A DNA stretch of 35,506 bases from Candidatus Gastranaerophilales bacterium (GTDB taxonomy: Bacteria; Cyanobacteriota; Vampirovibrionia; Gastranaerophilales; Gastranaerophilaceae), in contig CALUSW010000011.1 in the NCBI GenBank assembly GCA_944323535.1, positions 1 to 35,506 of the forward strand, given 5' to 3'. Shown here piece by piece: positions 1-5,951 of the stretch. Both the position numbers and the translations under genes were made by a program. Position 1 is the stretch's first letter, and each line of letters begins with the position of its first letter. Below the pieces are notes generated by a model. The model was not told the DNA's origin and made no database searches. It worked only from the letters and a program-made list of their open reading frames with translations.

Positions 1-84
1 CGCTTCGTATTATATTTTCAGTTTAATGGTGTTTTTCAAAAAATCAGAAAAAATTCATTTTTTCTTAAGATTTTATTATTTTCT

Positions 85-1890
85 TTAAAGATTTCTTTTT
101 GATAAATAAATCTTTATAAACACATTACAAATAAATTCAATTATTTTGTTAATCTTGGAAAGATTTATTAATTTTTTAAATATAATATGTTTTATGCCGA
201 TGCCGTATTTTGCAAGGTACAAATGGCTCAAAAGCCCGGTAGCTTTATTGGCAGCAAAAAAGTATTTATCACCATTTTTTTTATTAATAATATTGTGTAT
301 TTCTTCTGAATACATTTTTCTTTGTTCTCTGGTTGTTGTGATTAAACTTTTATAATAATCAGGATTTTGAGATAATACGGAATTTTGGAGAAATATAACA
401 CTGTCTATAACACAGATACGATCAATATATGCTTTATTCTTCTCAATAAATTCTTTATTTTTTATTATATCTTCAATCGTTTCTGTTGGATGTCCCAAAA
501 TTAGATATACCAGATTAAATATGCCTGCTTGTTTTGAGTATTTTAATATATTTGTTACAGTTTCTAAAGAAATACCTTTTTTTATATAATCTAAAATCTT
601 GGGAGAAGCAGAATCAAGCCCCCAGTATATAGTAGTACATCCGGATTTCTTTAATTTTTTTAAAATTTTTTTATTAAATCCTTTCTCAAATCTTGCGTAA
701 ATGGTGTAGCTGATATTGAGTTTGCGTTTAATTATTTCTTCTGAAAGTGATGATAAATACTGGGGCGGAAGTGCATTATCCCAGAATGAAAAATACCTTG
801 TTTTATATTTTTTTGATAAATAACAAAGTTCTTCTATTGTCTTTTTTACTGTTCTTAATTTAAATTTCTTATTTAAACTGCAATGACAAAAAATACAATT
901 ACCCCAATAACAGGAAGCAGATGATTTAATGGGAATAATGAATTCCGGAACAATATATAATGATTTATTGTATCCTGAAAAAGAAGATACAGGTAGGTTT
1001 TCATAATTAATTTCTTTGTTTAATTCATTTACTTTAATTTTTTTGTTTCGTAAAAAAATAAAATTGTCTATATCATTAACTGATATTTCTTTATTAATAA
1101 ATTTCATTATATCTATAACTGTATTAAAACTTTCTTTTATTGATATGGAGTCAAAAAACAGTCCGAATAATTCGGGTAAATTTTCTATTACCCTGTAATA
1201 ATCATTAAAAAAAGAACCTCCTATATTTATATGGATATTGGTTTTTTGTTTTAATTTGTACGCAAGCATTAGTCCTGGTATTAAATAAAAAGGCATTCCG
1301 ATTTGAATTCCTATGCAATCGGGTTTTGATTTTAATATTTCATCAGTTTTACTGTCATAAAATTTATCCAGAAAATTATATTTACTGTTGAAATAATATA
1401 TAAGAGTATCAATATCAAACGAAAACTCTTTTGCATTTTCAAGGTCGGGAAATAATTTTCTCATTAACTCTATATCAATTTTAGAAATTTGCTGAATATA
1501 TAAAGTTAAAATCTTTATATATTTCATACAAATATCATCATTGTAAAAAAATAATTTATGATTTAATATTTTTGAACAGACACTTATATCCTGTTCTTTA
1601 CCTGATAAAAAGGTTTCATTATCAGGCATAATATACTCATCTTTAAGCATATTTAAAACATCTCTTAAAGGTTTAGGTATTTTTTCTTCTTGTTTGTATA
1701 TGTTTTTGATAAATGAATCATAATTGTAAATGTTATCTTTTTTTTGCATTATATTAATATGTTCTGTATTCAAATCAATGAAATCAGTTTCATATCCATT
1801 ACTTTCCAATTGTCCGATTAACATTGGAATGCCTGGAATCGGTGCGATTTCTATTACATAACCTACGGGTTTTATGAATAAATACTTCAT
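85..1890 (-). CDS. B12-binding-type radical SAM enzyme (putative RiPP tailoring)
   Basis: The 601-residue protein has the layout of cobalamin-dependent radical SAM enzymes: an N-terminal Rossmann-like part (start to about residue 250, opening with KPVG and IPMLIGQLESNGYE) and a radical SAM core from about 320. The cluster-binding cysteines are Cys327, Cys332 and Cys335, a C-x4-C-x2-C spacing seen in the CYWGxCxFC form of this group. Further core marks are FSFWDNALPP (about 368), YWGLDSASP and LGHPTET. The cobalamin DxHxxG motif is not visible, which is common in this class. Family members methylate unactivated carbons or rearrange peptides. Its ATG overlaps the stop of the ATP-grasp gene by four bases (ATGA), so the two are translationally coupled. 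It is the last gene of the operon. The substrate, probably the peptide encoded at 4167-4286, is inferred from position only. Confidence 0.8.
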   Translation of the reverse strand: MKYLFIKPVGYVIEIAPIPGIPMLIGQLESNGYETDFIDLNTEHINIMQKKDNIYNYDSFIKNIYKQEEKIPKPLRDVLNMLKDEYIMPDNETFLSGKEQDISVCSKILNHKLFFYNDDICMKYIKILTLYIQQISKIDIELMRKLFPDLENAKEFSFDIDTLIYYFNSKYNFLDKFYDSKTDEILKSKPDCIGIQIGMPFYLIPGLMLAYKLKQKTNIHINIGGSFFNDYYRVIENLPELFGLFFDSISIKESFNTVIDIMKFINKEISVNDIDNFIFLRNKKIKVNELNKEINYENLPVSSFSGYNKSLYIVPEFIIPIKSSASCYWGNCIFCHCSLNKKFKLRTVKKTIEELCYLSKKYKTRYFSFWDNALPPQYLSSLSEEIIKRKLNISYTIYARFEKGFNKKILKKLKKSGCTTIYWGLDSASPKILDYIKKGISLETVTNILKYSKQAGIFNLVYLILGHPTETIEDIIKNKEFIEKNKAYIDRICVIDSVIFLQNSVLSQNPDYYKSLITTTREQRKMYSEEIHNIINKKNGDKYFFAANKATGLLSHLYLAKYGIGIKHIIFKKLINLSKINKIIEFICNVFIKIYLSKRNL

Positions 1891-2810
1891 GGCTTTATAT
1901 CAGTCTTTTCTTTTGTTTCCTTTTGTATATCAATTTTTTTTCCATAGATAAAATCATAAAAATCAGGTGTAAATTTCAAAAAACCGGAACAAGGAGTAAA
2001 GGTCATTTCTCCAAAATATAATTCATTATTTATTTCCATAAAATCAACTCTGACAAAATTAATATCTTTTGCCAGAAGTTGTGCGTATTTAATAACTTTA
2101 TCTTTATTGGAATTTAATAAAGGGGGATCTTCACCTTTAAACCCGATATAAAACTTGCAGGGTTCCCATCTTGAATTAAAAAAATACTGTACATTATGAA
2201 TATGATTATTTTCACTGAATTTTATGGGAAATCTGTATGATACAAATTCAGCTTTTCCGTTAAAACACCACACTTCCCAATGAACTATATCATCGGGATT
2301 TCCCAGAAATTCTTCAGCGAATATATACGGTTTTATATTTCTATAATGCAATTCATAATAACTCCAGTAAGCATAATTTATTTTTAAAATTATTTTATAT
2401 GTTTTTAATAATATTCTTATTGTTTTATAATCAAGGTTGTTTTTATTTTTGACAAAAAAATTGGTCCGCCAAGCATGATTAGTCTTTAGTACAAAACTGT
2501 CAGGAAGTTTTGTAAAATCAATATCATTAAATGAATTAGCTATCTGGTATGTTTGTGCGTATTTTAATTCTGGTACATTTTTTGATACAAAATTCTTGAC
2601 GTAAATTTTGTCGCTTAAAAGTGTTTTTCTCGGATTATCCGTATATAATTTCATCCATTGTATTTTATCTGATAGTCTTTCTGGGTTATCTAAATTAAGA
2701 CTTCTGTTATAAGTTCTTTTGTATTTAATTTTTAGTATATATTTATAAAATATTGATGGAATATGTTTGAGAAATAAGTATCTTAAAATATATTTTACGG
2801 TTAGATCCAT
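1887..2810 (-). CDS. TupA-like ATP-grasp ligase
   Basis: The 307-residue protein resembles the TupA-like ATP-grasp family: LSDKIQWMKLY near the N terminus, PDSFVLKTNHAW (ATP-binding Lys region), YIFAEEFLG, and the C-terminal metal/ATP segment VRVDFMEINNELYFGEMTF followed by CSGFLKF. ATP-grasp enzymes join a carboxylate to an amine or similar nucleophile through an acyl-phosphate. TupA relatives usually sit in cell-surface polysaccharide loci and add amino acids. I chose the ATG at 2810: a longer reading from 2900 would overlap the upstream gene by 83 bases, whereas 2810 lies 7 bases after that gene's stop and has AAAGGAAA upstream. It ends in an ATGA overlap with the B12-type radical SAM gene. 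Here it sits between two radical SAM enzymes in a peptide operon, so a role in linking or capping the peptide is plausible but unproven. Confidence 0.75.
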   Translation of the reverse strand: MDLTVKYILRYLFLKHIPSIFYKYILKIKYKRTYNRSLNLDNPERLSDKIQWMKLYTDNPRKTLLSDKIYVKNFVSKNVPELKYAQTYQIANSFNDIDFTKLPDSFVLKTNHAWRTNFFVKNKNNLDYKTIRILLKTYKIILKINYAYWSYYELHYRNIKPYIFAEEFLGNPDDIVHWEVWCFNGKAEFVSYRFPIKFSENNHIHNVQYFFNSRWEPCKFYIGFKGEDPPLLNSNKDKVIKYAQLLAKDINFVRVDFMEINNELYFGEMTFTPCSGFLKFTPDFYDFIYGKKIDIQKETKEKTDIKP

Positions 2811-2817
2811 TAAGGTA

Positions 2818-4167
2818 TTATTTCCTTTCAGCTGCTTCCATTTGTATTTTTGCATTTTCGCAAAAAAGCTTATACGGTTGCAGATAAAAGCCTGCAGCAT
2901 GTGCTACTCCGGGACAATATGCACAATATTTGCAGTATTCTTCTTTAAAACACTGTTTTAAGTCTTTATTTTTGACAGATTTAATTTTTTTTAGATTTAT
3001 TCCCGTTCCTTTGTAAGTCCATATATCTTTTAGCGAAACCGATTTGATATTGCCTAGCGGTATTTTTAATACCGGACAAACATATATATCTAAATTCGGA
3101 TTGACTAATAAGCTTTTATATCCGGCAGTACAAACTCCCAAATTCATAAAATCATCAATTGTATCTTTTGTTTTTAAATTCTTAATATCCAGTACTGATT
3201 CTTTATCAACGAGTATATTCAAAAGCTGATTTTTTGTAATTCTGACATCCGAATTACTTTTTGTAGGATTATCTATTAATTTATAATCTAATATTAAACC
3301 GGTGTTGTTCTCTTTTGCAAATTTTTCTACTTCTTTGTATTCGTATGCATTATACTTCGTAAGAAAACAATTTATTCTGACATTTATGTTATTTTCTCTG
3401 AGCTTTTTAATAACGTATAATGTTTTTTTATGCGAGTTTGTAATACCAGTAATTTTATCGTGTATTTCAGGGTTCATACTGTATAAACTCAGTACAACTT
3501 CCAAGGGATACAAGCTTATAACTTTTTCAAATAATTCGTTGTCATCATATAATTTCTGACCGTTTGTAAAAAACTCAAAAGCAATTTTTTTCTTTCGGAT
3601 GTATTCAATTATTTTTATAAAATCTTTATTTAAAGTGCATTCTCCTCCCGACAGCGTAATAAGGATGGTTCCAAGTTCAGCTGCTTCATCTATAGATTTT
3701 CTTACATCTTCAAATTTAATTTGATTTTCGCAATTTTTTTCATTAAAACAATGAATACATTTTAAATTACAATTATAGGTCATTTCAAGAAATAATTTGG
3801 ATAAAAAACCATTTGCAGCTATAGTAGAGATTATTTCCATAAAGAAAGCATCAGTGTGTTCAAAGCTGTTTACGGATTCATTTTTGTTTCTTCGGATGAA
3901 GTCACCGGTATCTGTTATTAATAATCCGGCTGATATAAGGTCATTTAAAAACTCTTCCAATTCATCTTCCAAATGATTTATTCTGGCAAATTCAGATATG
4001 TCTTTCTGTGAAACATTCTTTGCCAGTTGACTCCATAAAACAGATGAAAATCCTTCTAACTCTATAAATTCGTTTAGTTTATGATTAAATATATATGAAA
4101 CAAGCTTTCCGTCATTTAATTGATAACTCTGAGTTGAAATCCAATCGGGTACTTTAATATTTGACAT
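2818..4167 (-). CDS. PqqD-domain radical SAM/SPASM peptide maturase
   Basis: The 449-residue protein has three parts. Residues 1-90 look like a PqqD-type peptide recognition domain (FNHKLNEFIELEGFSSVLW, then a winged-helix-like region). The radical SAM core has Cys133, Cys137 and Cys140 in CNLKCIHC, then LSGGECTLN. The C-terminal SPASM domain has Cys346, Cys364, Cys406, Cys412, Cys415, Cys418 and Cys436, enough for two auxiliary iron-sulfur clusters. This is the standard form of enzymes that cross-link RiPP precursors by thioether or carbon-carbon bonds (sactipeptide, ranthipeptide and cyclophane enzymes). Its ATG at 4167 overlaps the stop codon of the 39-residue peptide gene (TAATG), which ties the enzyme to its likely substrate. 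The bond made cannot be told from sequence. Confidence 0.88.
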   Translation of the reverse strand: MSNIKVPDWISTQSYQLNDGKLVSYIFNHKLNEFIELEGFSSVLWSQLAKNVSQKDISEFARINHLEDELEEFLNDLISAGLLITDTGDFIRRNKNESVNSFEHTDAFFMEIISTIAANGFLSKLFLEMTYNCNLKCIHCFNEKNCENQIKFEDVRKSIDEAAELGTILITLSGGECTLNKDFIKIIEYIRKKKIAFEFFTNGQKLYDDNELFEKVISLYPLEVVLSLYSMNPEIHDKITGITNSHKKTLYVIKKLRENNINVRINCFLTKYNAYEYKEVEKFAKENNTGLILDYKLIDNPTKSNSDVRITKNQLLNILVDKESVLDIKNLKTKDTIDDFMNLGVCTAGYKSLLVNPNLDIYVCPVLKIPLGNIKSVSLKDIWTYKGTGINLKKIKSVKNKDLKQCFKEEYCKYCAYCPGVAHAAGFYLQPYKLFCENAKIQMEAAERK

Positions 4168-4286
4168 TAGTTAGCATCCCAATGTGATGTTTGTGTGCCG
4201 CCCCAGTTACCGCAAAAGAAATGACAGCATCCACCGGCAACTATATATGAGAATTTTACCATCCTTTTTATATATAACTTTTTCAT
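4167..4286 (-). CDS. Putative RiPP precursor peptide (39 aa)
   Basis: This short gene encodes 39 residues starting at an ATG preceded by AAAGGATAAAGT, a good ribosome binding site. The first 17 residues form a basic, hydrophobic leader (MKKLYIKRMVKF and so on). Then come GGCCHFFCGNWGG at residues 18-30 and a polar tail with His35, Trp36, Asp37 and C-terminal Asn39. Candidate modification sites are Cys20, Cys21, Cys25, Trp28, His22, His35 and Trp36. The stop overlaps the start of the PqqD/radical SAM/SPASM gene as TAATG. Gly18-Gly19 could be a double-glycine cleavage site, but no C39 peptidase or exporter is visible in the window. I do not recognise it as a member of a named precursor family. 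The gene call rests on the ribosome binding site, the overlap, the composition and the following maturases. Confidence 0.8.
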   Translation of the reverse strand: MKKLYIKRMVKFSYIVAGGCCHFFCGNWGGTQTSHWDAN

Positions 4287-4393: not shown

Positions 4394-4423
4394 ATTATAA
4401 CACCTATATTTATATATTGTCAA
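4394..4423 (-). promoter_or_regulatory. Sigma70-like promoter of the peptide operon
   Basis: On the minus strand TTGACA (4418-4423) and TATAAT (4394-4399) are separated by 18 bp, both hexamers being perfect consensus. The transcript would start near 4387, giving an untranslated leader of about 100 bases before the precursor ATG at 4286. An 8-1-8 palindrome (4412-4428) overlaps the -35 element. One copy of ACCTATATTT (4402-4411, plus strand) lies in the spacer, where MerR-family regulators usually bind. Confidence 0.75.
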
Positions 4424-4460
4424 TATATTATTTATCATGGTAATTTAAAAACCTATATTT
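4402..4460. repeat. Direct repeat pair ACCTATATTT, possible regulator sites
   Basis: ACCTATATTT occurs at 4402-4411 and 4451-4460, each followed by a similar TATA stretch. The first copy is inside the spacer of the leftward operon promoter. The second lies just upstream of a TATAGT hexamer (4461-4466) that could serve the divergent MerR gene. Two matching sites, one at each promoter, are what a shared regulator would leave. The AT-richness of the region makes chance matches possible. Confidence 0.4.
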
Positions 4461-4503: not shown

Positions 4504-4857
4504 ATGAAACAAATAGAACCGGATGAGCTATTTTACCAGATTAGCCAGGCGGCTAAGCTTTTAGGTATTACAAGCGACAGATTAAGAACATATGAAGAAG
4601 AAGGATTAATTAAACACTTTAGGACAAAGAATACAAAAGACGGTAAAAGATTGTTCAGCATGAATGATATAGAATGGCTTACAATAGTCAGAGATTTGAT
4701 TAAATTAGGTGTTTCAATTTCTGTTATAAGAATAATGTTAAATACTAAAATTTCTATGAATAATCAAATTTTAAAAGAAAAAGATTATGAAATTATAGAA
4801 TTAATTCATAAACTAAAATCACATAAAATATATGAATTGCTTTTAAAGCGAAATTAA
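4504..4857 (+). CDS. MerR-family transcriptional regulator
   Basis: The 117-residue protein begins with a MerR-type helix-turn-helix: YQISQAAKLLGITSDRLRTYEEEGLI (about 11-36), then KRLFSMNDIEWLTIVRDLIKLGVSISVIRIML, the usual wing and dimer-helix entry. The effector-binding part is very short and has no cysteine pair, so it is not a metal sensor of the MerR/ZntR type; it is closer in size to GlnR/HspR-like or simple SoxR-like forms. It has a clear ribosome binding site (GAGGTAGAAT before ATG). It is divergent from the peptide operon with a 217-base shared control region, which makes it the likely controller of that operon. Its end overlaps the converging kinase gene by four bases. Confidence 0.85.
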   Translation: MKQIEPDELFYQISQAAKLLGITSDRLRTYEEEGLIKHFRTKNTKDGKRLFSMNDIEWLTIVRDLIKLGVSISVIRIMLNTKISMNNQILKEKDYEIIELIHKLKSHKIYELLLKRN

Positions 4858-5951
4858 CAGGCGGAAGAAAAACATAAAGGAAGTGAAAAAATAATTGATG
4901 TTCCTTTATTCTCCGCGTTTTGTGCTGAAATTCTTCCGTTATGCGCTTCTATTATTTTTTTGCAATTATATAATTCAAGGCTGAAACCTACCTTTCGGAA
5001 TTTATTTGAGCAAGTCAGGTATTCTTCAAAGATTTCATTCGGATTTTTCAGGTTTTTTGAATATCCGTAATCAGTGAAAGATACATTAATATTTTCTTTG
5101 CTGTTTTCAATTTTAATTTTTATGATTGAATTTTCTATACTTTGTTCTGAAGCATTTATTATTAAATTATTTATAACTTTTTCCATTTCATCTATATCGA
5201 TTTCAGCTTCATGGTAATCACCTCTGATTGTAAGTTCTATTGTCTGTTTTTTTCTGTCTAACAGATTCATGAATTTGTTACATCTGTCTTTTACCAATTT
5301 TACAATTGAATATTTTTGTTTTTGAAGTTCATATAAATTAAACTCGTTTTTATATTTCATCACAAGATTATCTGTCATATAATTCATAAAACGGCAGGAG
5401 TTTAACAATTCGTCCAGTATTGTTTTTAAATTACTTTCTATTCTTCCGAATTTATTATTTAAAATTAATTCTAAAATCTGAATATTTGCACGTATAGGAT
5501 TTTTTAAATCATGCATTAATATGTCGGTAAATGTTTCTCTTTGAATTCGGTTTCTTATTTCCTGCGTGATATCATGAATTATTACAATGTAGCCTTTTAT
5601 TTTGCCTTTTTTGTTTTTTAATTTACTTATGTGTAAATCTATCGGAATGTTTTGAAAATTATTTTCGGCATTAAATATAAGTTTTAAGAATATATGATTA
5701 TTTTGCGAGTTTTTGAAATTTTCTATTGTTATTCTTATATTATCGTTCAGAAAATTTTCCATAATATCAAAAAGAGTTGTATTATTAGCTTTAATTGCAT
5801 TTTTTGAGTTATGAAACATTATATTAAACTTCTCATCTGTGATGATTAAATCACCTGATGAGTATTTAGCAATATTCATAAATATTTCACCTGTTATATC
5901 AGAATTTTTATTTAAAAAATCAACTGTAAAATCCATTCCGAATCCAATCAT
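4854..5951 (-). CDS. Soluble PAS-domain histidine kinase, degenerate ATP lid
   Basis: The 365-residue protein has no membrane segment. A PAS-like domain covers about 28-130 (IITDEKFNIMFHNSKNAI to GYIVIIHDITQE). A HisKA dimerisation helix carries the phospho-acceptor His147 in MHDLKNP. An HATPase domain follows with an N box in VINNLIINASEQS. The G1 box reads DYGYS instead of DxGxG, and the G2 region reads KVGFSLEL instead of GxGLGL, so ATP binding may be weak or lost. The final box GTSIIFSLP is intact. No response regulator is adjacent. An alternative start is Met6. The gene converges on and overlaps the MerR gene by four bases and lies 73 bases downstream of mnmE on the same strand. Confidence 0.8.
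   Translation of the reverse strand: MIGFGMDFTVDFLNKNSDITGEIFMNIAKYSSGDLIITDEKFNIMFHNSKNAIKANNTTLFDIMENFLNDNIRITIENFKNSQNNHIFLKLIFNAENNFQNIPIDLHISKLKNKKGKIKGYIVIIHDITQEIRNRIQRETFTDILMHDLKNPIRANIQILELILNNKFGRIESNLKTILDELLNSCRFMNYMTDNLVMKYKNEFNLYELQKQKYSIVKLVKDRCNKFMNLLDRKKQTIELTIRGDYHEAEIDIDEMEKVINNLIINASEQSIENSIIKIKIENSKENINVSFTDYGYSKNLKNPNEIFEEYLTCSNKFRKVGFSLELYNCKKIIEAHNGRISAQNAENKGTSIIFSLPLCFSSAC

Follow-up and report, generated by a model that had tools for sequence, protein, structure and literature searches.

A candidate pathway for a ribosomally synthesized and post-translationally modified peptide (RiPP) is encoded at positions 85-4286 of contig CALUSW010000011.1 (35,506 nucleotides, analyzed whole and called the window hereafter) from the genome of a Candidatus Gastranaerophilales bacterium (GCA_944323535.1; G000). 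Members of this order are gut bacteria, widespread and for the most part uncultured, whose secondary metabolism is little known. An initial annotation had read four open reading frames (ORFs) in this region as a small peptide, a PqqD/radical S-adenosylmethionine (rSAM)/SPASM maturase, a TupA-like ATP-grasp protein, and a B12-type rSAM enzyme. All four are present on the minus strand, head to tail and with the junctions it described: TAATG between the peptide and SPASM genes, a 7-base gap between the SPASM and TupA genes, and an ATGA overlap between the TupA and B12-type genes. A divergent MerR-family gene, absent from that reading, is a further member of the cassette.

4167..4286, minus strand: precursor peptide of 39 aa, MKKLYIKRMVKFSYIVAGGCCHFFCGNWGGTQTSHWDAN, containing Cys, Gly and Trp; AAAGGA Shine-Dalgarno sequence at 4298-4293
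2818..4167, minus strand: rSAM/SPASM maturase of 449 aa with an N-terminal domain resembling a RiPP recognition element (RRE); Pfam Radical_SAM and SPASM
3930..4167, minus strand: predicted PqqD-like RRE at residues 1-79 of the maturase, with bbb-aaa topology, from an AlphaFold2 model and Foldseek
1887..2810, minus strand: TupA-like ATP-grasp ligase, PF14305 (Pfam ATPgrasp_TupA), with invariant K109, K123, E166, R254, D256 and E268
85..1890, minus strand: B12-type rSAM enzyme of 601 aa with a CX4CX2C motif (C327, C332, C335); Pfam Radical_SAM
4504..4857, plus strand: divergent MerR-family regulator of 117 aa, by Pfam, with orthologues in two intact cassettes
4394..4423, minus strand: operon promoter, TTGACA (4423-4418), 18-bp spacer, TATAAT (4399-4394), aligned in two other genomes
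4402..4460, minus strand: two direct copies of AAATATAGGT (4460-4451 and 4411-4402), candidate MerR operator
1..84, no strand: contig end directly 3' of the operon, possibly cutting off more genes

The Radical_SAM, SPASM, and ATPgrasp_TupA assignments all exceed the Pfam gathering cut-offs, and the score for PF14305 (99.9 bits, cut-off 25) bears out the ligase identity given earlier. The most likely start of the ligase is the ATG at 2810, which has AAAGGA 5' of it and would give 307 aa. The single promoter previously claimed was located as TTGACA-N18-TATAAT and can be aligned in two further genomes. Since the contig stops 84 bp past the last gene, the operon may continue beyond its end. The cassette encodes neither a transporter nor a protease; export and leader removal are therefore supplied elsewhere or do not occur.

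The peptide is more than a chance ORF because its leader recurs at the same site in orthologous loci. Intact loci of this kind were found in two congeneric genomes, L219 (SPASM 54% and TupA 62% identical to the window proteins) and L098 (48-49% and 47%), and the gene order merR, peptide, SPASM, TupA is the same in all three. The Shine-Dalgarno sequence, position, and neighbors of the peptide gene are also kept. In the peptides of L219 and L098, MNKLYIKKRLKYLLIVASACCVYYQVNNNYCKNNPSGYNY and MKKLYIKKRVKINLTYVKGRACFFHGSHNNCCSGSTSAQY, respectively, the leader is retained while the core has diverged; across the window, L098, L219, and L120 (where the peptide is present and the SPASM gene broken), the MKKLYIK+ leader is conserved and the cores are hypervariable. 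The leader of the window peptide probably spans about residues 1-17 and its Cys-rich core about 18-39. Homologous clusters lacking a conserved peptide had been named as the outcome that would speak against a RiPP; the comparison came out in favor of one. With an encoded precursor beside its enzymes, a conserved leader, and a variable core, the cassette can be regarded with high confidence as a RiPP locus, in line with the initial annotation. No precursor family in NCBIfam or Pfam reached its score cut-off with these peptides.

The MerR protein is assigned to the cassette because both intact orthologous loci carry it, at 70-77% identity, and an orthologue occurs in none of the other loci compared at that stage. 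It contains no Cys, which argues against metal or thiol sensing of the CueR type. The intergenic region is alignable in the window, L098, and L219, with TTGACA/T-N17/18-TATAAT-like hexamers in each. MerR proteins usually bind within the promoter spacer, and the second copy of AAATATAGGT (4411-4402) sits inside it, making the repeat a candidate MerR operator.

The SPASM maturase possesses an rSAM motif, CX3CX2C, at residues 133-140 (C133, C137, C140) and seven invariant Cys in the SPASM region (C346, C364, C406, C412, C415, C418, C436), all of which are retained in the 14 relatives aligned. While Pfam supported the rSAM and SPASM parts of the earlier description, it returned no match for PqqD; an N-terminal bbb-aaa domain is nonetheless visible in the AlphaFold2 model (predicted local distance difference test score, pLDDT, 83), and residues 1-79 are predicted to form a leader-recognizing RRE. 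Foldseek retrieved RiPP maturases as top matches, with SuiB best, followed by CteB and SkfB, and SkfB ranked first when a profile was searched against PDB sequences. These sactipeptide/ranthipeptide and streptide maturases share with the window enzyme the RRE, rSAM, and SPASM domains and a short Cys-containing precursor encoded directly upstream. They are its nearest solved structures by profile and fold, yet are only ~17-19% identical to it, and their systems differ from the present one, which has a TupA partner and scores far under the curated NCBIfam cut-offs (AlbA, 73.3 against 850 bits; SkfB, 63.1 against 300; StsB, 61.7 against 625). The CX3CX2C motif, the auxiliary-cluster Cys, and the Cys-containing core are as expected of sactipeptide and ranthipeptide pathways, and by analogy thioether formation is the likeliest chemistry of the SPASM enzyme.

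Relatives of the SPASM enzyme at E 1e-20 or better were found in 8 of the 239 genomes of the family Gastranaerophilaceae; within the genus, relatives at E 1e-60 occur in 19 of 41 genomes. A GTDB-based scan added loci from metagenome-assembled genomes (MAGs) of Gastranaerophilales and from a few Clostridia, Bacilli, and Erysipelotrichaceae MAGs. Most intact SPASM loci display a short, Shine-Dalgarno-led peptide gene upstream of the SPASM gene. Where the leader is of type III (MLKISRIARHT...), the peptide is present and TupA absent. Six TupA-less relatives (L048, L102, L104, L121, L129, L176) have a partner of ~300-330 aa encoded upstream, in a gene that overlaps or adjoins that for SPASM; the versions in L104 and L106 (= L048) have HGRS..KGGGWN-type motifs in common, and that of L106 weakly matches Bud32-type kinases. 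Related loci (L050, L051, L099, L100) encode MLKIS(R/L)xx+H-type peptides. A larger arrangement was seen in L053 (6914-12643), where peptide, SPASM, and TupA genes are accompanied by those for a 344-aa protein and a second, small rSAM enzyme (336 aa), with a 404-aa distant SPASM-like protein encoded upstream.

The residues listed above for the TupA ligase are invariant across 21 aligned homologues. Its structural model (pLDDT 92) resembles LysX, D-Ala-D-Ala ligases (Ddl), and RimK at a template modeling (TM) score of ~0.4, and the graspetide ligases AMdnB, PsnB, and MdnC are also among the matches at ~0.4; a TupA profile search of PDB sequences, graspetide ligases included, gave no match up to E 1. 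A tree of 112 TupA proteins places loci with a type II leader within a single clade of 63 (support 100) and groups the window protein with SPASM-, B12-, and YcaO-linked TupA (support 90). The peptide-linked genes thus make up two clades, and TupA from other genera falls elsewhere, save for one YcaO-linked locus.

Across these loci the common component is the TupA ligase rather than the pair of rSAM enzymes. TupA lies 0-450 bp from the SPASM gene in ~34 distinct loci, with a spacing of a few bp or an overlap in those of the window's own type, and when the genus was searched with a TupA alignment, 34 of 41 genomes had matches. Two genomes stand out, with approximately 55 (G123) and 60 (G247) matches listed, some of them fragments at contig ends; among the copies read (e.g., L236-L246), most TupA genes are followed by one for a distinct, Cys-rich 90-165-aa protein bearing the common leader. 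To count such pairs independently of any leader model, a peptide was defined as a Shine-Dalgarno-led ORF of 40-170 aa with at least two Cys, starting at most 60 nt after TupA. Genus loci not selected through SPASM satisfied this at 30 of 42 TupA genes (L236-L275 plus the window), compared with 1 of 33 in other genera. Most of the TupA-adjacent Cys-rich peptides belong to one leader family: the type II leader profile, L[ST]xEEIxxLYSDIIE, was found at 55 of 80 TupA genes in the genus and at none of 33 others, and 48 of its 49 distinct matches lie beside TupA or SPASM. Since some of the same peptides went into this profile, the count made without a leader model is the better control. Recombination of the 5' half of TupA was considered as a diversifier of the G123 pairs and is unproven, identity being 0.55-0.8 within the gene and ~0.35-0.4 in core and upstream sequence. 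Judged by gene content, the minimal unit within a single genus of Gastranaerophilaceae is the peptide-TupA pair, and SPASM, B12-type rSAM, or YcaO enzymes are add-ons to it. This pair recurs by itself or joined by SPASM, and separately joined by a B12-type rSAM enzyme or YcaO.

The B12-type enzyme illustrates this modularity. It is missing from L098 and L219, and among the cassettes examined SPASM, TupA, and B12-type genes occur together in the window only, so that this trio, put forward as the defining combination, does not define the system. The enzyme was likewise ruled out as a conserved cassette member, since L219 continues with a YchF-like GTPase gene and L098 with a convergent gene. Its best NCBIfam similarity is to TIGR03975 (rSAM_ocin_1), covering the N-terminal and rSAM regions, and a profile match to TsrM (E 9e-4) covers the rSAM region only; the B12-type label thus denotes family similarity. 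The CX4CX2C motif and a long insertion in the N-terminal part set it apart from the RiPP C-methyltransferases of TIGR03975, by analogy to which C-methylation is its likeliest role. Its nearest relatives often reside in cassettes with TupA and a different small peptide, without a SPASM enzyme of the window's family (L064, L066, L260, L065, L181); L063 pairs a relative with a peptide and has no TupA within the 20 kb examined. The L065 cassette also contains YcaO, glycosyltransferase family 8 (GT8), and other rSAM genes, and the L065 and L181 peptides are homologous, with a C-terminal xTYSxAGxYxFTYK. Both loci (L065, 156-11493; L181, 4864-13310) encode TupA, peptides of 58-60 aa (..DDDFYxWxxIxxTYSxAGxYxFTYK), GT8, several rSAM enzymes, and B12-type enzymes. 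L065 additionally has a weakly U32-like gene, and part of this RiPP-like system is duplicated in L181.

Taken together, these observations are, on balance, best explained by a regulated RiPP cassette in which TupA activates a carboxylate of the peptide, the cassette being one branch of a TupA-centered family; we consider this explanation reasonably probable. The MerR regulator would control a single promoter from which the 39-aa precursor and its enzymes are expressed. The short basic leader (MKKLYIK+) would be held by the RRE domain of the SPASM enzyme, which most likely joins core Cys to backbone or side-chain carbons as thioethers. TupA would then convert a carboxylate of the peptide, most likely that of the C terminus, into an acyl phosphate and couple it to an amine, which could be small and exogenous or an internal nucleophile, the latter closing a ring. 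The B12-type enzyme, added in the window genome, probably C-methylates the core. For precursors free of acidic residues, TupA might alternatively attach an exogenous carboxylate to the peptide. That TupA acts on the peptide at all is probable. The site of activation is more tentative: because the precursors of L098 and L219 are entirely free of Asp and Glu, a ligase acting uniformly would have to use the C-terminal or an exogenous carboxylate, and activation of the precursor C terminus is the favored option, held with somewhat less than even confidence.

Several points weigh against this explanation. The precursors lack conserved residues at their C termini, which is odd for a C-terminus-specific ligase, and some precursors contain Asp or Glu, so that side-chain use is possible there. 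A conserved cleavage motif ahead of the core was considered and set aside as only weakly enriched over shuffled segments; a hydrophobic residue plus Ala marks the leader-core boundary in 30 of 45 precursors against a shuffled mean of 17, a modest excess. Since loci were gathered by TupA or SPASM similarity, the counts describe neighborhoods rather than an unbiased genome survey. Of the earlier B12-type rSAM assignment, the rSAM domain and the family similarity held, but no B12-binding Pfam domain was detected, and the TIGR03975 cut-off was missed (80.9 against 281.85 bits).

A graspetide-like alternative, in which TupA would form lactones or lactams linking Asp/Glu to Ser/Thr/Lys of the core and the SPASM enzyme would add thioethers, a scheme already proposed for Bacteroides loci, draws on a close precedent. 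ATP-grasp and SPASM enzymes with variable precursors, using another ATP-grasp family, have been reported in Bacteroides, and the precursors of this graspetide branch 5 contain Cys and start with MKKL (PMC8939145). The window core, with one Asp and several Thr/Ser, would suit such chemistry, as would the resemblance of the TupA fold to AMdnB, PsnB, and MdnC, among others. The two systems are alike in an ATP-grasp-fold ligase, a SPASM enzyme, and a short variable precursor, but part company in the ligase family, PF14305 lying outside the known graspetide ATP-grasp families and its profile lacking a PDB sequence match, and in the leaders, which are short and of other kinds; nor was a peptidase-transporter gene seen in the cassette. 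Since neither orthologous precursor offers an Asp or Glu, ordinary side-chain cross-linking is unlikely; acidic residues are also missing from ~14 of 45 predicted cores, whose boundaries are approximate. We therefore regard a graspetide-like product as improbable.

Equally doubtful is a role in surface chemistry, whereby TupA would join the peptide to a glycan or other surface molecule as an anchored glycopeptide or amidate a glycan with a small amine. Precedent comes from Cj1438C of the Campylobacter jejuni capsule, in which a TupA-like ATP-grasp domain fused to a family 2 glycosyltransferase (GT2) forms an amide on the carboxylate of glucuronate (PMC11800379). Two TupA members tested from other genera are GT2-TupA fusions, and a GT8 or GT2 gene is found in some cassettes. 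The window ligase shares the PF14305-type domain and catalytic residues with Cj1438C and the teichuronopeptide TupA, both amide ligases of surface polysaccharides with GT2-fused relatives, but differs in adjoining a peptide gene; the peptide-linked TupA genes form their own clades, and most peptide-TupA pairs in the loci annotated have no recognized glycosyltransferase beside them. Finally, a plain sactipeptide or ranthipeptide pair with TupA and the B12-type enzyme as bystanders from surface-polysaccharide or cofactor metabolism, as the TupA-less type III loci and the B12-less orthologous cassettes might suggest, is very unlikely given that tight TupA-SPASM spacing recurs across species and clades, that TupA accompanies peptides without SPASM in many loci, and that relatives of the B12-type enzyme also accompany TupA plus peptide.

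Returning to the favored TupA-centered family, we lean slightly toward a broader proposal: TupA-like ligases, so far known from surface polysaccharides, would in a single genus of gut Gastranaerophilaceae define a RiPP class not yet described, one that uses carboxylates without a core acidic side chain, has peptide plus ligase as its smallest unit, treats rSAM and YcaO enzymes as optional, and reaches dozens of pairs with differing cores in some genomes. The earlier remark that no named class matches holds for the TupA-type pairing, which is unreported in the material searched, and less so for ATP-grasp and SPASM enzymes near small peptides, given the Bacteroides loci. The limited open-access literature together with NCBIfam and Pfam contained no record of TupA-type ligases that form RiPP-like pairs with precursor families of their own, which is not proof of novelty, and in the former no such peptides were reported from Gastranaerophilales. 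If the ligase acts on the peptide, a further ATP-grasp family would join the RiPP toolbox, in a minimal two-gene system amenable to testing in Escherichia coli. Dozens of ligase-peptide pairs in a genome of 2-2.5 Mb would also raise the question of why a small gut symbiont would need so many variable Cys-rich peptides.

With respect to mobility and surroundings, the plasmid database PLSDB gave no DNA match to the cassette, and viral contigs in IMG/VR yielded no relative of the SPASM enzyme; the 19 TupA relatives found there are distant, and no leader-type peptide accompanies any of them. Genes for proteins of 1176-1183 aa lie upstream of the L098, L054, and L120 cassettes and possibly mark a shared insertion site. 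The one at L098 encodes a pyruvate:ferredoxin oxidoreductase, which was set aside as a part of the system, being absent from the window. A HATPase sensor-kinase-like gene (4854-5951, minus strand) converges on merR in the window and is not found beside the orthologous cassettes. On contig G000:C29 (L057, L012), the window's own genome carries another SPASM cassette, this one of type II, which is apparently decaying, with a truncated TupA gene and a disrupted precursor leader.

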